Source: Chromatiales bacterium (GTDB lineage Bacteria > Pseudomonadota > Gammaproteobacteria > SZUA-152). From it: a stretch of 36,646 bases of DNA. Both the position numbers and the translations under genes were made by a program. Shown in pieces: positions 1 to 7,194 of this stretch. The stretch is from contig JALSHB010000223.1 of NCBI GenBank assembly GCA_026982475.1, positions 1-36,646 on the forward strand, read 5' to 3'. The notes under the pieces were generated by a model. It did not search any database, was not told the origin of the DNA, and worked only from the letters and a program-made list of their open reading frames with translations. Numbering within the stretch: position 1 is the stretch's first letter; each line of letters starts with the position of its first letter.

Positions 1-8
1 GAAATTTG

Positions 9-2005
9 GTTCTCCGCAGCAAATTGCTGCGGCCTCATTGAAGCACGCCCACGTCGCGCATGCGGTCCGTCATAAAGGTGGGTTCTCCGCAGCAAATTGC
101 TGCGGCCTCATTGAAGCTAGAAATCGGCGTTGACTGAGACAGATCAGCAGACGTTCTCCGCAGCAAATTGCTGCGGCCTCATTGAAGCTCGAAATCGGCA
201 AACTTGTTGCAGTTAGCGCATAGCGGTTCTCCGCAGCAAATTGCTGCGGCCTCATTGAAGCCTCAAGGCCGTGCTGGCGGCCGCGCCCGCCGGCACCGTT
301 CTCCGCAGCAAATTGCTGCGGCCTCATTGAAGCGGGATGTCCTCGCCTGAGGCCTGTGCGCGCTGAATAAGTTCTCCGCAGCAAATTGCTGCGGCCTCAT
401 TGAAGCCCTGGGTATCAAAGCGGCGTGGTGACAAATCAGTCAAGTTCTCCGCAGCAAATTGCTGCGGCCTCATTGAAGCTGACATGAGCCTGGCAAATGT
501 CCACGCACAGCTAAAGGTTCTCCGCAGCAAATTGCTGCGGCCTCATTGAAGCCTGATCATCATTGTTCGTGCGCCGGCCGGCCACCCTGGTTCTCCGCAG
601 CAAATTGCTGCGGCCTCATTGAAGCGAAGCGTCTCACATCGATGCCGAGTGGGTGTTGATGTTCTCCGCAGCAAATTGCTGCGGCCTCATTGAAGCAGGA
701 TATCAAGGTCAGGATAGGCGCGCTGTGATATGGTTCTCCGCAGCAAATTGCTGCAGCCTCATTGAAGCATGAACAGTATCGAAAGCAAGCAACTGACGAC
801 AAGGAGGTTCTCCGCAGCAAATTGCTGCGGCCTCATTGAAGCAGGGCATCGGCCAGCCGGCCGCAACGGGCAGCCAGCCGGTTCTCCGCAGCAAATTGCT
901 GCGGCCTCATTGAAGCGCAGGTGGCGTTCAGTTCGGCCTCGTTCTCGGCCATGTTCTCCGCAGCAAATTGCTGCGGCCTCATTGAAGCTCCAAGAAGAAG
1001 ATCCTGCTCACCTGCTAATTGCTTAGGGTTCTCCGCAGCAAATTGCTGCGGCCTCATTGAAGCGACGCCGCCTTGGTGCGCTTTGCCTCCCGCATGCTTG
1101 GTTCTCCGCAGCAAATTGCTGCGGCCTCATTGAAGCGCGGCGAAGTTGTTACGGATGTTCTCGGCATAGGTCGGTTCTCCGCAGCAAATTGCTGCGGCCT
1201 CATTGAAGCTGGCCGGGCTGTGGCGGGCGGACGGGCTCAAGGCCGGTTCTCCGCAGCAAATTGCTGCGGCCTCATTGAAGCTGAGAACGTTATCTGGTGT
1301 AAACCGTACACAATCGGGGGTTCTCCGCAGCAAATTGCTGCGGCCTCATTGAAGCGCAGCCAACCGCACGAGTACTTGTACTTTCCCACATGGTTCTCCG
1401 CAGCAAATTGCTGCGGCCTCATTGAAGCAGGGAGGCTGGCCTTAAGTGTCTGGGCGATTTCGTTGGTTCTCCGCAGCAAATTGCTGCGGCCTCATTGAAG
1501 CAAACCTACTTGCTTTTAGTCGGTAAGCCGGACTAGGTTCTCCGCAGCAAATTGCTGCGGCCTCATTGAAGCTCAGCTTCGAAGTCAGGCCTGTTGCCGA
1601 ATTGCTGGTTCTCCGCAGCAAATTGCTGCGGCCTCATTGAAGCGTACGAATCCAGCGCATAATGGCCTCCTGAGGCGGCGGTTCTCCGCAGCAAATTGCT
1701 GCGGCCTCATTGAAGCAAGGTCACAAACGGCACCGGCACCGACAATATCTGGGTTCTCCGCAGCAAATTGCTGCGGCCTCATTGAAGCGGTGGCATTCCC
1801 CAAGTACCGCACCGCCTATGAGGAGGTTCTCCGCAGCAAATTGCTGCGGCCTCATTGAAGCTTGGTCTGCTCGAGTCGTATGCGGCCGATTCGGAATGTT
1901 CTCCGCAGCAAATTGCTGCGGCCTCATTGAAGCGCATCGTCGCGGTAAGCGTCACGACTACTTTACTTCGTTCTCCGCAGCAAATTGCTGCGGCCTCATT
2001 GAAGC
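9..2005 (+). CRISPR. CRISPR array, 28 repeats and 27 spacers (left end cut)
   Basis: Twenty-eight copies of a 36-nt repeat start at 9, 82, 153, 226, 298 and so on to 1970. The repeat starts GTTCTCCGCAGC and ends CCTCATTGAAGC. Spacers are 35-39 nt. The repeat holds a perfect palindrome (CCGCAGCA, AAT, TGCTGCGG), which would give an 8-bp crRNA hairpin followed by an ATTGAAGC end of the length of a Cas6-type 5' handle. All copies are identical except the one at 733-768, which has A instead of G at 755. The ATTGAA-type end and a degenerate repeat after 2005 suggest transcription left to right with the leader off the left edge. No cas gene is in the window, so the subtype cannot be assigned. Short open frames through the array are artefacts of the 36+36-nt periodicity. 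Confidence 0.99.
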
Positions 2006-2043
2006 CGCCAAGTCTTGGCGCCGAACACGAAAGGCTTGACCAG

Positions 2044-2065
2044 GTTCTCCGTGATGCACATGAAG
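2044..2065 (+). repeat. degenerate terminal CRISPR repeat stub
   Basis: Thirty-eight bases after the last perfect repeat the sequence returns to GTTCTCCG (2044-2051) and then diverges; TGAAG at 2061-2065 resembles the repeat's 3' end, but the middle is lost. The 38-bp gap matches the spacer length range. This is the usual look of a decayed leader-distal repeat and supports a leader on the left. An eight-base match alone could be chance; the correct spacing makes it more credible. Confidence 0.55.
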
Positions 2066-2119
2066 TGGGTATCGTGATTCGGTGTTGCCCAAAGGTGGAA
2101 ATAAGCTACCATTCGTAGA

Positions 2120-2249
2120 AGCCGTGCCGCCGTGACGACAGAAAATCGCCGGGCTGTTCGCGTGGACTGTGATCCATACATGAGGGATGCCAGGTGAGAG
2201 TCCTGGATGGCGCCCCTCCACGGTGGTCACGGCTTCCTCTTTATTTTTT
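2120..2249 (+). ncRNA. candidate structured RNA with terminator-like end
   Basis: A long-range stem pairs 2120-2134 with 2219-2234: seven base pairs, one bulged T at 2227, then eight more pairs including one G-T. It encloses about 84 nt. Inside, GAGGG (2182-2186) can pair with CCCTC (2214-2218) and CCAGG (2190-2194) with CCTGG (2202-2206). A CGACAG/CTGTTCG pair near the 5' side could form a further hairpin. The outer stem is followed by a T-rich run (2234-2249). Together this resembles a small multibranched RNA with its own terminator, or an elaborate terminator for the CRISPR transcript. It matches no RNA family I can recognise. It could also act as a leader of the HD-GYP gene, though the T-run argues that transcription stops before it. 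Confidence 0.4.
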
Positions 2250-2353
2250 CGCTCCGCTCGTTCGAGCCATCGGGGCGCGCTCTCGCCAGCTCAAGTTAAT
2301 TGCCTTTCCGGCCGCTCTATGAAGGGTCTGTTGGCGGCTGCCGGGGTTTGTGT

Positions 2354-3613
2354 GTGAGCAACAAAATCAGGGTCTATACCTGTGATCTGGAACTCGGGAT
2401 GTATGTTGCCGAGCTGGATCGTCCGTGGACGGATACCCCTTTTTTGTTTCAGGGATTTGTCCTGCGTGAGGCGGATGAGATCGCGGTGCTCTGTGAGCAT
2501 TGTGAGTATGTCTATGTGGACCGGGAGCAGTCACGGCCGGATGTGGCGGCCAGGCTGGTTTCGCTGCGGTCTGTGTCCGAGGCGCGGCCACCCAGGGCGG
2601 GAGTGTCCAGAAAATCGGGGTTTCGTGAGGTGGAGTTCCGCCGTTCGCTGACCCGCTCCCATGCCATCTATCGTGATGCCCGCGGCTGGATCGATCAGAT
2701 GCTGGAGGACAGCCGCCTGGGCAACAGCGTCGATACGGATCAGGCCCGCGCCCTGGTGACCCAGCTCGCCGACGAGGTGATTCGCAATCCCGATGCGCTG
2801 GTGTGGCTGACCTATCTGAAGTCGCGTGATGAATACACGGCCACTCATTGCATGAATGTCTGCATCCTGGCGTTGACCTTCGGTCGCTGCCTGGCGCTGG
2901 AGGAGGAGGCGCTGCATCAGTTGGGCCTGGGCGCGCTGTTGCACGACCTGGGCAAGATGCAGGTGCCCGATGAGGTGCTGAACAAGCCGGGGCGGCTGAC
3001 GGAGGAAGAGTTCGCCATCATGAAAAGGCACCCGGGCCTGGGCTTTGCCATGCTGCGCGATGACAAGAATATCGACAAGGCCAGCCTGCACATCGTGCTG
3101 CATCACCATGAACGCCTCGATGGCCGTGGTTATCCCCGCGGGCTGGATGAGAAGAGGATTCCCCTGCTGACGCGAATTTCCTCCATCGTCGATGTCTATG
3201 ACGCCATTACCTCCGACCGTTGCTATCACGATGGCGTTGCCCCGGCGCAGGCGCTGGAAAACCTGTTCAAGTGGGCGCCGGGCAATTTCGATGTGACCCT
3301 GCTGGAAGGTTTCATCAAGTGCATCGGTATCTATCCCATCGGCAGTGTGGTGCGTCTCAGCACTGGCGAGGTGGGCATCATCGTTGCCTCGGACGAGTGC
3401 AACCGTCTCAAGCCCATTCTGCTCATCGTGCAGAATGCCGAGGGCAAGCCCATGGAACAGCGCCGCCTGATCAACATGGCGAGCGCCTCCTGGGAGAAGG
3501 GCGAAGCGCCCCTGACCATCGAGCAGGTGCTGGAGCCCAAGGCCGTCGGCGTCGATATCAAGGCCGTGTTGTTGGAAGAGCTGAATCTGGCCAAAAATCT
3601 CCCCCCGTCCTGA
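2354..3613 (+). CDS. HD-GYP domain protein, probable c-di-GMP phosphodiesterase
   Basis: A 419-residue cytoplasmic protein expected to hydrolyse the second messenger c-di-GMP. The N-terminus (residues about 3-60) matches the DUF3391 domain that precedes HD-GYP in many proteobacteria (KIRVYTCDLELGMYV, DTPFLFQGF). The HD-GYP core is intact: HD at 197-198 in LLHDLGK, and HHERLDGRGYP at 251-261, so the metal ligands and the GYP signature are present. I chose GTG at 2354 because homologous DUF3391 proteins start just before this motif. An upstream in-frame TTG at 2300 would add 18 residues unlike the family. It has no partner GGDEF or receiver domain, and no transmembrane segment is evident. It stands alone between the CRISPR trailer and the DsrC-like operon. 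The activity is inferred from motifs. Confidence 0.93.
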   Translation: MSNKIRVYTCDLELGMYVAELDRPWTDTPFLFQGFVLREADEIAVLCEHCEYVYVDREQSRPDVAARLVSLRSVSEARPPRAGVSRKSGFREVEFRRSLTRSHAIYRDARGWIDQMLEDSRLGNSVDTDQARALVTQLADEVIRNPDALVWLTYLKSRDEYTATHCMNVCILALTFGRCLALEEEALHQLGLGALLHDLGKMQVPDEVLNKPGRLTEEEFAIMKRHPGLGFAMLRDDKNIDKASLHIVLHHHERLDGRGYPRGLDEKRIPLLTRISSIVDVYDAITSDRCYHDGVAPAQALENLFKWAPGNFDVTLLEGFIKCIGIYPIGSVVRLSTGEVGIIVASDECNRLKPILLIVQNAEGKPMEQRRLINMASASWEKGEAPLTIEQVLEPKAVGVDIKAVLLEELNLAKNLPPS

Positions 3614-3692
3614 GCGCGGGTTCTCTCGTCGTCTCTTGCCGTCTTTCCTCATGCCCCTTCGTGGCAGTGTGCGGATAAAGCCGCGCGTTGCA

Positions 3693-3721
3693 TTGAATTC
3701 GTCTCCGTTCCCCCTTATTTC
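3693..3721 (+). promoter_or_regulatory. weak candidate promoter before the DsrC-like gene
   Basis: TTGAAT (3693-3698) and TATTTC (3716-3721) are separated by 17 bases and lie about 50 bp upstream of the first gene of the five-gene cluster. The match to the sigma-70 consensus is only partial (4/6 and 3/6). Because the operon carries its own sigma-like gene, a non-consensus promoter is also possible. A strong ribosome site (AAGGAG, 3757-3762) precedes the start at 3771. Confidence 0.2.
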
Positions 3722-3770
3722 TGCTGTAAGCAAGAAAGATGCATCAGCCAGCGCATAAGGAGACAAGGCC

Positions 3771-4121
3771 ATGAACGACAATGTCGTCACGATCAATGTG
3801 AAGATGGATGAAGAGGGCTTTTTGCTCGACCCCAACGACTGGAGCCCCTGTGTGGCGGAGGCCATCGCCGAGCGCGAGGGCATCGAGCTGACCGACCTGC
3901 ACTGGGCCCTGATCAACTATTTCCGCACCTTCTATGAGGACCACATGCGCCACCCCACCATGCACGAGTGGGTGACCACCCTGGGCCGCTTTCACGGCAA
4001 GCCCTTCCGGGAGGCCAAGGCGTATCGGGACTTTCTCTACCAGCTGTTTCCCAAGGGGCCGATCCCGACCCTGTGCAAGCTGGCCGGACTGCCCAAGCCG
4101 GTGGAAGACGTCGAGGAATGA
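3771..4121 (+). CDS. DsrC/TusE-family sulfur-relay-like protein lacking the penultimate cysteine
   Basis: This 116-residue protein is a clear DsrC/TusE/DsvC homologue: GFLLDPNDW at 16-24, the LHWALINYFRTFYEDH helix, and the C-terminal FPKGP...C...GLPKP arm. DsrC proteins carry substrate sulfur on two arm cysteines (CysB, and the penultimate CysA), while TusE keeps only CysA and delivers sulfur to tRNA thiolation. Here C102 corresponds to CysB, but the CysA position is acidic and the arm ends KPVEDVEE. The protein therefore cannot form the usual intramolecular trisulfide or act like TusE. Members without CysA have been grouped separately and suggested to be regulatory. AAGGAG lies eight bases before the ATG. 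It is the first gene of a co-directional cluster, and no dsrAB or tusBCD genes lie nearby. A redox-sensing or regulatory role is inference. Confidence 0.9.
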   Translation: MNDNVVTINVKMDEEGFLLDPNDWSPCVAEAIAEREGIELTDLHWALINYFRTFYEDHMRHPTMHEWVTTLGRFHGKPFREAKAYRDFLYQLFPKGPIPTLCKLAGLPKPVEDVEE

Positions 4122-4217
4122 GGCGCGCCCGCGTGAAGCGGGGCGTCATCGACAAGATCGACGACCCGACAACGACAAGCCACTTTCAAAACAACATTCA
4201 ATAAAAGGAGTCAAGCC

Positions 4218-4664
4218 ATGGTAATGGCCGTTTCCCAATTCGAGCGCCTGTTCCGTGAAGCCGCGTCACTGGATATCGACAAGAACGACATCAAGCGCAC
4301 CACGGATTTCATCAACCGGCGCCTGTACGACCTGCTGTTGCTGGCCCAGGCCACCGCCCGGGCCAACGGCCGCGACATCATCGAGGCCCACGACCTGCCG
4401 CTGACCAAGGGCCTGCAGGCCAGCCTGCACGCCTTCAAGGCGCTCAACGAAGAGCTGGCCCTGGCGCCCATCCTCGAACAGCTGGCCAGGCTGCCCACGC
4501 TGGACCTGGACTACAGCGAGGAACTGGCGCAGCGCCTGCCCGAACTGGCCGGCGCCATCACGGTGAGCCTGGCGCGGGTGTTCCGCGCCGTGTACCCCAA
4601 GCTGAAGAACCCCGGCAGCGCCGAGTGGCAGACCATCGACGAGATCTACGAGGTGCTGCTGTGA
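4218..4664 (+). CDS. DUF1931 family doublet histone-fold protein
   Basis: A 148-residue protein of the DUF1931 family. The family's structurally characterised member, from Aquifex, is two histone folds in one chain. The first half shows the pattern: a short helix (FERLFREAASLDI), a long helix (DIKRTTDFINRRLYDLLLLA...ARANGR) and a third helix beginning IIEAHDLPLTKG, close to the archaeal histone layout. The second half (about 80-148) repeats it more loosely. Such proteins are expected to act as a pseudodimer and may bind DNA, but DNA binding for this one is not shown by sequence. The start is well supported by AAGGAG (4205-4210) seven bases before ATG 4218; an internal ATG at 4224 is also possible. 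It lies between the DsrC-like gene and the HPF-sigma fusion and is probably co-transcribed with them. Confidence 0.85.
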   Translation: MVMAVSQFERLFREAASLDIDKNDIKRTTDFINRRLYDLLLLAQATARANGRDIIEAHDLPLTKGLQASLHAFKALNEELALAPILEQLARLPTLDLDYSEELAQRLPELAGAITVSLARVFRAVYPKLKNPGSAEWQTIDEIYEVLL

Positions 4665-4707
4665 GCACTGTGACAACCGCCGACCGAAGCAAGGGGAGAA
4701 ACCCACG

Positions 4708-5823
4708 ATGAGCAACGCCACGATGACCAGCAACGTGACTTACCGCCACCTCGACAAGGCCGAAAAGGCCAAGGCCCGCCAGGCCATCACGACCCATGTG
4801 GACAAGGACCTGGCGCCACTGCTGCAGCACTTCGACAACGAGCTGGTGCGCCTGCATGGCCTGGTGGAACGGCATACCAAGCGGCGTCTGTACCGCACCT
4901 CGCTGCGGCTCCAGCTGCCGCGCAAGGTACTGGCGGCGCAGGAGGAAGGGGAAGACATCGAGCTGGTGCTGCGCGATGCCTTCGCCGAACTGGCGCGTCA
5001 GCTGAAGAAGTACAAGAGCCGGCTCAACAACGAGCCCCTCTGGCAGCGCCCGGCGCGGCGGCGCCAGCTCCGCGAGCTTGTCAAGGGCGGAGACCGCACG
5101 GCGGAACAGCAGGCCCTGTTCCGCGACCTCATCAAATCCCACCTCAAGGGACTGTACAACTTCGTGCGCCGCGAGATCGCCTATCTCACCGCCTCCGGCG
5201 AACTCCTGCCCGGCCAGGTGACGCCGGACGATGTGGTCGACGACGTGGTGGTGCGCGCCTACGCGCAGCAGTCGCAACAGCCGGCCAGCCTGGCCCTGGA
5301 ACACTGGTTGCGCAAACTGGCCCTGGAGGTGCTGGACGAACAGGTCGCCCGCCGCCTGCCGTCGGCGTGCCTGGTGTCGCTGGAGACCCCGGTGGAGAGC
5401 GAGATCGAGGAAGACGACGAACAGCTCTACGAGTATTACCAGCCCGACGAGGCCCTGCGCCTGGAAGACCTCATCGTCTCCCCCGAGGCCAGCGCGCCGG
5501 AAAGCGCCCTGGCGCGCTATGAGCTGGCCCTGCGCAGCCAGCAGCTGCTGGCCTGGCTGCCGCGACCGTGGCGACAGGTGGTGGTGCTGGCGGACGTCGA
5601 CGGACTCAGCGATGAAGAGATCGCCGCCGTGCTGGGTATCCCCGTCGCCATGGTGGCCAGCCTGCGTCAGTTCGCCGAGGCCTACCTGCGCACCAAACTG
5701 CGCGACGGCGGCTATGCGGCACCGGAAGAGGGCGAGGCGCCCGAGGCCGGCTGGGTGCTGGACCCGCTGACCATCGACCTGCCGGGCGAGGTGGAGGAGG
5801 AGATCCTCGCCAAGTTTGCCTGA
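4708..5823 (+). CDS. fusion of HPF/RaiA ribosome-hibernation domain with sigma-70-like regions 2 and 4
   Basis: A 371-residue chimera. Residues about 8-110 resemble the hibernation promoting factor fold, which binds the 30S decoding region in stationary phase. The segment around 64-106, ending FAELARQLKKYKSRL (92-106), aligns with the HPF strand-helix end (LARQLTKHKDKL in E. coli). Residues about 132-215 look like a sigma region 2 (LYNFVRREIAYL at 149, DDVVDDVVVRAY at 174-185) with an insert. After an acidic linker (about 228-265), residues 281-332 look like ECF region 4 (WLPRPWRQVVVLADVDG, then GLSDEEIAAVLGIPV at 299-313). The recognition helix (AMVASLRQFAEAYLR) lacks the usual basic GTVKSR-type contacts, so promoter binding may be altered or lost. 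AGGGGAG precedes the ATG. The function is inferred: it could link ribosome silencing to transcription. Confidence 0.8.
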   Translation: MSNATMTSNVTYRHLDKAEKAKARQAITTHVDKDLAPLLQHFDNELVRLHGLVERHTKRRLYRTSLRLQLPRKVLAAQEEGEDIELVLRDAFAELARQLKKYKSRLNNEPLWQRPARRRQLRELVKGGDRTAEQQALFRDLIKSHLKGLYNFVRREIAYLTASGELLPGQVTPDDVVDDVVVRAYAQQSQQPASLALEHWLRKLALEVLDEQVARRLPSACLVSLETPVESEIEEDDEQLYEYYQPDEALRLEDLIVSPEASAPESALARYELALRSQQLLAWLPRPWRQVVVLADVDGLSDEEIAAVLGIPVAMVASLRQFAEAYLRTKLRDGGYAAPEEGEAPEAGWVLDPLTIDLPGEVEEEILAKFA

Positions 5824-5864
5824 CTGGTCCCTGCACCTGCGGATTCAGCTGGCCCGGGACCACA

Positions 5865-5892
5865 GGGGCCGGTAAGCTGCATCACCGGCCCC
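5865..5892. other. perfect 9-bp hairpin in the gap of the DsrC-HPF cluster
   Basis: GGGGCCGGT (5865-5873) and ACCGGCCCC (5884-5892) form a perfect 9-bp stem with a 10-nt loop in the 98-bp gap between the HPF-sigma fusion and the next gene. There is no T-run after it, so it is not a classical intrinsic terminator. It could attenuate transcription, stabilise the upstream mRNA 3' end or be a processing site. It may split the cluster into two expression units. Confidence 0.5.
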
Positions 5893-5921
5893 ATCCACAT
5901 TCCCCGGAGAGAAAACCCGCC

Positions 5922-6308
5922 ATGACCGGCAACAACACCCTCGGCGTGCTGCTCAACGGCATCGCCCAACTGGAATACCACCGCAACAAGCCCCTGCCGC
6001 CGCACCAGGGCGCCTATCTGGAAAAGATGGACCGCAAGATGCGCGAGGAGGGCATCGACCTGGGCGGCGAACAGATCCATGCGCCATCGCTGGAACAGTG
6101 CGCGCAGTTCGTCGCCGCCAATCTGGCCAACGCCATCACCCACGACGACGAGGCCGTGGCCGCCGCCATGTGCAGCTGGCTGGCCAACCGTCTGCCGGAA
6201 CTCCGGCAGGTGAAGATCGAGGCGCAGGGTGACGAGTGCACCATCAACCTGGTCTTCGATGAGGACTACCAGAAACAGGTCGCCATCCCCCTATCGCAGA
6301 TCCACTGA
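5922..6308 (+). CDS. conserved-looking small protein of unknown function
   Basis: A 128-residue acidic, soluble protein that I cannot assign to a named family with confidence. It has no signal peptide or membrane segment. It begins LGVLLNGIAQLEYHRNKPLP, has a central helical part (AQFVAANLANAITHDDEAVAAAMCSWLANRLP) and ends in a predicted beta pair (VKIEAQGDECTINLVFDEDY). Its two cysteines, near residues 87 and 107, form no CxxC motif. GGAGAG lies upstream of the ATG. Its stop overlaps the start of the thioredoxin-HEAT gene by one base (TGATG), so the two are very probably translationally coupled, suggesting the proteins act together. Base composition matches its neighbours. Confidence 0.8.
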   Translation: MTGNNTLGVLLNGIAQLEYHRNKPLPPHQGAYLEKMDRKMREEGIDLGGEQIHAPSLEQCAQFVAANLANAITHDDEAVAAAMCSWLANRLPELRQVKIEAQGDECTINLVFDEDYQKQVAIPLSQIH

Positions 6309-6952
6309 TGACCGAGGCCACCGACAGTCCCGAGGCCCTGCTGCTGGTGGGCAGCGGCTGCCCGCATTGCGCGGCGGTGCTGCAGGCCCTCGGCGAACTG
6401 GTCAAGGGTGGCGAGATCGCCCGCCTGGAGGTGGTGAACATCGGCCGCCGGCCAGAGGTGGCGCAACGGCTGGGGGTGCGCTCCGTGCCCTGGCTGCGCC
6501 TCGGCCCCTTCGAGTTGCAGGGCCAATACAGCCTCACGGAACTGCGCCAGTGGCTGGCCCGCGCCGGCACCCGCGAGGGCATGTCGGCCTGGTTCAGCGA
6601 ACTGCTGGCCAGTGGCCGCCTGGGTCGCGCCGAGGCCCTCCTGCGCCGTGACCCTTTGCTGTTCACGGCCCTCTTCGACCTGCTTGCCGACCCTGCCACC
6701 GAGCTGCAGGTGCGCATCGGCATCGGCGCGCTGGCGGAGGACTTCGCCGGCGATCCGGCCTTGCAGGCACAGGCGCCGCGCCTGTGCGCGCTGAGCCGTC
6801 ACGACGACCCGCGCGTGCGCCTCGATGCCTGCCATTACCTCGGCCTCAGCGGTGCCGCCGAGGCCGCCGAGTGCCTGCGTGCGCGCCTCGACGACGAGGA
6901 TGCAGAGGTGCGCGAGGAGGCCCGCGAAGCCTTGTCGGCGATCGGGGCGTAG
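6308..6952 (+). CDS. thioredoxin-fold and HEAT-repeat fusion protein
   Basis: A 214-residue cytoplasmic protein with two parts. Residues about 8-85 form a thioredoxin/glutaredoxin-like domain with a redox motif CPHC (C18, C21) and the expected cis-proline at P61 (SVPWL). Residues about 115-214 show HEAT/PBS-lyase-like repeats, for example HDDPRVRLDACHYLGLSG and DDEDAEVREEAREALSAIG, which usually serve as protein-binding scaffolds. There is no signal peptide. The gene overlaps the previous one by one base and closes the five-gene cluster. A reasonable reading is a dithiol oxidoreductase held by its HEAT part to a partner such as the DsrC-like protein or the HPF-sigma fusion, but the substrate is unknown. 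Confidence 0.85.
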   Translation: MTEATDSPEALLLVGSGCPHCAAVLQALGELVKGGEIARLEVVNIGRRPEVAQRLGVRSVPWLRLGPFELQGQYSLTELRQWLARAGTREGMSAWFSELLASGRLGRAEALLRRDPLLFTALFDLLADPATELQVRIGIGALAEDFAGDPALQAQAPRLCALSRHDDPRVRLDACHYLGLSGAAEAAECLRARLDDEDAEVREEAREALSAIGA

Positions 6953-7194
6953 CTTCCCCGTGCCTGTCGATACGGGGTGTCGCGCACCATGGCGTCCCGC
7001 CGGTTTGCGCCAGCCTGGCATGAATCCAGCGCGGACAAGGCTAGGAAAACGTTGCGCCCTTTGCGTCTTTGTGCCTTTGCGTTGAAACGCCAGGCCCTCC
7101 CGTAGCGGCAGAATGATTGGCGCTCATTCGCGGACTGAATTCCACGCCTGTCAAGTCTTGAAGTTCACCCGCCGAGGGCGGAAACTCCCCCTCC
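6953..7194. other. spacer before dnaE with half of a dispersed repeat
   Basis: This 242-bp gap holds no gene. Around 7046-7086 it has a single arm of the GCAAAG/CTTTGCG repeat family (TTGCGCCCTTTGCGTCTTTG then TGCCTTTGCGTTG), which occurs as an inverted pair at 14689-14855. The dnaE promoter is presumably here, but no convincing -35/-10 pair is seen, and dnaE has only a poor Shine-Dalgarno sequence. Confidence 0.5.

Follow-up and report, generated by a model that had tools for sequence, protein, structure and literature searches.

What a histone-fold protein may do in a bacterium is the question raised by the gene at 4218-4664 of this stretch of DNA. DUF1931, to which its product belongs, is one of the two main bacterial histone-fold families, and to our knowledge it has no known role, a point on which the original prediction was right. 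That prediction went further and placed the gene in a putative dormancy operon, in which nucleoid compaction would be coupled to translational shutdown by an adjacent ribosome-hibernation gene. Based on the analysis of the whole 36,646-nucleotide stretch (the window), related genomes and plasmid records, we propose with moderate confidence that DUF1931 is a doublet histone fold that was reused as an accessory factor in gene sets for heat and oxidative stress and for protein quality control. A role in protein stress is more likely for it than DNA packaging.

The DUF1931 gene and its gene run in the window

The gene lies in a run on one strand, the features of which are as follows:

2300-3613, plus strand: DUF3391-HD-GYP protein (c-di-GMP phosphodiesterase type; PF11871, PF13487), first gene of the same-strand run, kept upstream in the congener
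3693-3718, plus strand: candidate sigma-32 (heat-shock) promoter, TTGAAT-N12-CCCCCTTAT, 52 nt before dsrC; the only match in the window, with conserved boxes
3771-4121, plus strand: DsrC/TusE-like protein, 116 aa (PF04358, E 5e-29), upstream neighbour of DUF1931
4218-4664, plus strand: DUF1931 doublet histone-fold protein, 148 aa, net charge -5, pI 5.1 (PF09123, 1wwi match)
4708-5823, plus strand: fusion of S30AE (HPF/RaiA-like) and ECF-sigma-like regions 2 and 4, 371 aa; homologue of the tLST/LHR orf11 (Pfam/NCBIfam, identity to island genes, C-terminal fold matches)
5922-6308, plus strand: conserved 128-aa protein with no assigned family, conserved in the congener; overlaps the start of the Trx-HEAT gene
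6308-6952, plus strand: thioredoxin-like domain fused to HEAT repeats (PF13192, PF13646); overlaps the preceding stop

The DUF1931 ORF is preceded by a Shine-Dalgarno-like AAAAGGAG, and its product matched PF09123 over residues 8-143 (E 1.2e-50, 171.8 bits against a cut-off of 21.8). When phmmer was run against the PDB, residues 1-148 aligned with residues 1-148 of TTHA1479 (1wwi/1wws; E 1.2e-42), and Aq_328 (1r4v) was a less close match (E 2.5e-9). Judged from its sequence, i.e., from the full-length match, the curated cut-off that was passed and the solved member that was matched, the protein is a member of DUF1931, and the identification of a doublet histone-fold gene in the original prediction was borne out. 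The fold is taken from homology because the single-sequence AlphaFold model, which was all-helical (mean pLDDT 49.5), was too poor to use. The gene is the only copy in its 3.0-Mb gammaproteobacterial assembly and is 89% identical to the copy in a congener, in which the gene order is the same. In this congener, HyVt-583, the HD-GYP, DsrC-like, DUF1931, S30AE-sigma and 128-aa proteins are found in the same order with 84-90% identity, which indicates that the DUF1931 ORF is real and constrained at the protein level; the mean column identity of the DUF1931 alignment is 66%. High expression and a low tolerance of insertions were described for the Thermus gene (PMC10627809, PMC13140390), and a housekeeping role would be equally consistent with them.

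The DsrC-like protein ends in ...CKLAGLPKPVEDVEE, in which the upstream cysteine is present and the C-terminal cysteine of DsrC/TusE is absent, and therefore ordinary sulfur transfer is doubtful. The 128-aa protein had no match in Pfam, NCBIfam or PADLOC. The pattern TTGAA-N11-16-CCCCWTNT matched the window once, with 0.05 matches expected, and the 3-Mb genome five times, compared to none for the reversed pattern, and the congener retains both boxes of the candidate promoter, although the intergenic stretch around them has diverged. In this genome neither dnaK nor groES is preceded by the motif; a DEAD-box helicase gene and an ApaG-like gene follow other matches, or no clear gene does. As these other four matches are not before dnaK or groES, the reading of 3693-3718 as a sigma-32 promoter is suggestive only. 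None of Hsp20, ClpK, YfdX, HdeD or DnaK was found in the 36-kb window, and the tie of this locus to proteostasis therefore runs via the orf11 homologue, the Trx-HEAT protein and the promoter motif.

Of the 57 relatives, G000 and G005 (the latter 74% complete) are the only ones with DUF1931 and also the only ones with the orf11 homologue. Upstream of dnaE, the DNA of three congeners becomes homologous only at window position 7148, and in two of the three an ExbB/ExbD-type gene run (identified by eye) occupies the place instead. Positions 1-7147 therefore form a lineage-specific block, for which a rearrangement may be an alternative account. At the contig start (6-2015) there is a CRISPR-type array with 28 copies of GTTCTCCGCAGCAAATTGCTGCGGCCTCATTGAAGC at a spacing of 71-75 nt.

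The downstream gene and orf11 of the heat-resistance islands

The gene at 4708-5823 starts 43 bp downstream of the DUF1931 gene. In its product, S30AE was matched over residues 22-107 (E 4.1e-8, 34.3 bits, which passed the Pfam cut-off of 23.7) and Sigma70_r4_2 was matched in Pfam with E 5.9e-8, and the ECF-type match (TIGR02937) over residues 137-331 reached 42.6 bits, just below the NCBIfam cut-off of 42.9. The hibernation-factor equivalog TIGR00741 scored 29.8 bits against a cut-off of 40.9. A model based on three sequences had a mean pLDDT of 55.6 and was best in the sigma-like part, and a Foldseek search with this medium-confidence model returned SigW (best E 8e-6), CnrH, RpoE-NepR and PhyR-NepR among the PDB matches. 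The ribosome-hibernation gene of the original prediction can thus be retained in so far as an S30AE domain is present, but the domain is fused to an ECF-sigma-like part and the canonical genes are located on other contigs. The assignment of 4708-5823 as the canonical hpf was rejected because two S30AE genes on those contigs are stronger (105 and 68 bits against 38).

According to sequence comparison, the product of 4708-5823 is homologous along its full length to that of orf11 in the tLST/LHR heat-resistance island. A tblastn search with its product found 298 plasmid records, 269 of which covered most of its length. The homologue in Klebsiella pneumoniae pKPN-332 (30% identity over 89%) is a ‘hypothetical protein’ between hdeD-GI and trx-GI, and identity to the homologues in the Sphingobium, Roseomonas, Shinella and Burkholderia islands was 35-36%. 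The gene order is Hsp20(x3)-MarR-FtsH-AAA ATPase (ClpK type)-orf11-(HdeD) in Roseomonas and Shinella, ATPase-orf11-HdeD in Caulobacter and orf11-HdeD-YfdX in Sphingobium; the Burkholderia region holds Hsp20, orf11, GroESL and DnaK, and a remote homologue from another genus is found in the order YfdX-Hsp20-orf11-CbpA-CbpM. Transketolase and transaldolase genes were also observed near orf11 in Sphingobium (L068). The alignment of the orf11 homologues is co-linear along its length, and signals for S30AE and sigma are seen in them again, mostly under the Pfam cut-offs, with only the sigma signal in the Klebsiella copy and a weak PhyR_sigma match in one homologue. Reviews of tLST describe orf11 as less than 30% identical to anything with a known function (PMC8290217), and its deletion left lipid oxidation unchanged (PMC8407380). 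No description of orf11 as an S30AE-sigma fusion was found in the open papers searched.

Charge, DNA-contact residues and neighbours of DUF1931

Residue and charge statistics from an alignment of 22 DUF1931 proteins were used in place of a surface electrostatics map. The positions of the canonical HMfB contacts were carried over by a weak hhalign comparison, with the HMfB sequence checked against the PDB. This alignment recovers the expected L2 register, AGRKTIKAEDIEL / NGRDIIEAHDLPL (AGRKT-IKAEDIEL / NGRDI-IEAHDLPL). The position of K53 is occupied by D in 19 of the 22 proteins and that of T54 by V, I or L in all 22; at the L1 position R19, which we transferred by ungapped register, D is found in 20/22. 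R52 is kept in 20/22 and the R10 position is largely kept. The net charge ranges from -2 to -10 across all 22 proteins, and the pI of the window protein is 5.1 compared to 9.6 for HMfB. The second fold is acidic (mean -5.5) and almost without conserved basic residues. The surface-charge check suggested with the original prediction, which was made here by residues, thus gave a net acidic protein but did not establish one that is acidic throughout, as the first, N-terminal fold is approximately neutral and has the invariant basic residues R13, K/R22, R27 and K/R48.

Neither the window protein nor the 22-protein alignment has the features of a DNA-packaging histone, i.e., a basic protein with the L1/L2 contacts R19, K53 and T54. 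These findings agree with published statements that DUF1931 is without DNA-binding residues (PMC11390915, PMC12701072). The residue pattern and the acidic charge argue against nucleosome-like DNA binding, and they are compatible with a partner that binds the first fold at its basic face. Nucleoid compaction is therefore not supported, given the acidic charge (-5; -2 to -10 in the family) and the replacement of R19, K53 and T54 by D, D and V/I/L.

The distribution of DUF1931 is sparse, with 2/57 relatives, 10/369 genomes in the class and 3/398 in the phylum sample (one of the three below the cut-off), and a single-protein query of the genome contigs returned two close relatives only. It was not found in viral contigs by an alignment scan or in phage records. 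The neighbours were compared at 17 Pseudomonadota chromosomal loci, using as markers general heat-shock chaperones and the genes listed for tLST in PMC8290217 in a leave-one-out search, in which the references never came from the same lineage as the locus; 80 stretches of approximately 10 kb from four DUF1931-bearing genomes served as controls. A marker was present within 5 kb of DUF1931 at 12 of the 17 loci, representing 10/12 genus-level groups, compared to 5/80 controls (one-sided Fisher p ~2e-8 to 4e-8), with the reservation that the markers were chosen when some loci were already known and that several contigs were short. The remaining five of the 17 loci had no marker within 5 kb. YfdX-HdeD-DUF1931 on one strand was found in L050 and L058 and HdeD-DUF1931 in L057 and L059; Cls (cardiolipin synthase) adjoins DUF1931 in L051, L078, L081 and L082. 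GroESL is near it in L052, Trx in L080, and PsiE and DsrC in L033. DsrC-like genes are direct neighbours of DUF1931 in three genera (the window, L033 and L078).

The plasmid copies, which were found in 23 records, extend this association. In Rhodococcus and Nocardia plasmids, GSP-DnaK-GrpE-DnaJ-CbpM-ClpB-Trx-ZnF-oxidoreductase is followed on the same strand by DUF1931 (variants were also seen), which starts 13 bp after the oxidoreductase gene. DUF1931 is by GroESL, Hsp20, Trx and DnaK in Trichormus/Nostoc, by two Hsp20 genes in Aquicella, on a contig that also encodes HPF/RaiA separately, and within 9 kb of DnaK/GrpE/GSP in Streptomyces. Two Azospirillum plasmids carry DnaK-ClpB-DUF1269 clusters and a degenerate DUF1931, with Hsp20 also at the Azospirillum locus. 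No marker was found near the R. jostii pRHL1 copy (37% identical). Thus, DUF1931 is associated with stress genes in several phyla, both statistically and at the operon level, and its neighbours are non-random and fit protein quality control and heat resistance better than dormancy. The expectation of non-random neighbours was confirmed in this way, but the partners are chaperones and heat-resistance genes (HdeD, YfdX, Cls, PsiE, Trx, DnaK, ClpB, GroEL, Hsp20). Ribosome-hibernation genes were rare beside DUF1931: apart from the pair in the window, one is carried on the Aquicella contig and a weaker orf11-like gene is found in Azospirillum. A stress-tolerance or proteostasis cluster is a better description than ‘dormancy operon’. 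No report of a link between DUF1931 and heat-resistance islands was found in the open papers searched.

Several other observations were made at these loci. A SET-domain gene (L033 6513-6821; PF00856, E 2.5e-13), a possible methyltransferase, lies directly 3' of DUF1931 in a Chromatiales assembly, and one genome, G918 (L081 and L082), has two DUF1931 copies, each beside cardiolipin-synthase-like genes. The pentose-phosphate genes zwf and gnd are near DUF1931 in Trichormus, and zwf was identified by eye in a gammaproteobacterial genus (L048 12769-15257; L053 9994-11481). In Aquicella lusitana plasmid 4 (L062 3869-9324), a Tn3-family element splits DUF1931 into halves of residues 1-43 and 41-148.

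Explanations and comparison with known systems

Among the alternatives, it is unlikely that DUF1931 is a passenger of mobile stress islands that is functionally unlinked to its neighbours. Its patchy spread in the class, the plasmid copies, the Tn3-split Aquicella copy and the degenerate Azospirillum copy would be expected of a passenger, but the same kind of neighbours recurs in different arrangements at chromosomal loci of many genera, a same-strand, closely spaced order is repeated and the protein is well conserved. We consider it rather improbable that DUF1931 is a regulatory partner of the orf11-type protein, controlling its sigma-like part by PhyR/NepR-like switching. The islands that carry most of the orf11 homologues (298 plasmid records) showed no DUF1931 and orf11 is absent from most DUF1931 loci, even though the two genes are 43 bp apart, are adjacent in two species and occur in only the same 2/57 relatives, and even though the sigma part resembles ECF sigma factors that were crystallised with anti-sigma factors and PhyR and one homologue has the weak PhyR_sigma match.

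A nucleoid-compacting histone, which condenses DNA while its neighbour silences the ribosomes, is similarly improbable. The histone fold (by homology), the S30AE neighbour, the largely kept R52 and R10 positions, the invariant basic residues of the first fold and the high expression of the Thermus homologue (PMC10627809) speak for it; set against these are the net acidic charge of all of the relatives and the low pI, the conserved Asp in place of R19 and K53, the loss of T54, the near absence of conserved basic residues from the second fold, the published reports (PMC11390915, PMC12701072) and the rarity of S30AE genes among the neighbours. A role as a sulfur-relay or redox partner of the DsrC-like protein is very unlikely: the adjacent DsrC-like gene in three genera and the thioredoxins that recur nearby favour it, but no such gene was seen beside the other DUF1931 loci and the window copy is without the C-terminal cysteine.

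In the preferred reading, that of a protein-stress accessory factor, DUF1931 would probably be co-transcribed with the DsrC-like protein and the orf11 homologue, possibly from a heat-shock-type promoter, and the cluster would be induced by stress. The basic face of the first fold and the acidic second fold may bind a protein (or RNA-protein) partner, by analogy with TAF- or Sos-type histone folds, and this binding could stabilise a client or complex during stress. Meanwhile, the orf11 protein may act on ribosomes and/or on the use of sigma factors. More tentatively, and with some doubt, a doublet histone fold could have become a proteostasis factor for heat and oxidative stress that moves together with chaperone islands and in this lineage is linked to an S30AE-ECF-sigma protein (orf11) that could sense the state of the ribosome and redirect transcription.

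Compared to tLST/LHR, the window has a full-length orf11 homologue, and the order orf11-trx is matched (orf11 4708-5823, Trx-HEAT 6308-6952) with one gene between; elsewhere, DUF1931 adjoins HdeD, YfdX, Cls and PsiE. However, the window is without the hsp20-clpK core, YfdX, HdeD and KefB, and the tLST islands examined showed no DUF1931. Membership of the locus in tLST was rejected because the core dna-hsp20-clpK(clpG) is absent, with no Hsp20 or ClpK match in the 36 kb. A hibernation-type domain with a sigma-like region would be a first handle on orf11, a gene of a widespread plasmid-borne heat-resistance island. With HPF/RaiA, the 4708-5823 product shares the S30AE domain, which in this case is weak-scoring and fused to an ECF-sigma-like region, whereas the canonical genes are elsewhere in the genome. 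With HMfB (1A7W), DUF1931 has the histone fold in common, and the L2 register was recovered by the weak profile alignment, but DUF1931 is a fused doublet, is acidic and has D for R19, D for K53 and V/I/L for T54. The closest known systems are TTHA1479 (1WWI, Thermus thermophilus) and Aq_328 (1R4V, Aquifex aeolicus), which are of the same family and length as the window protein, align with it along the full length and likewise have no histone DNA contacts. The window DUF1931 has a stress-gene neighbourhood, and a consistent link to chaperones and heat resistance gives DUF1931 a specific, testable role.
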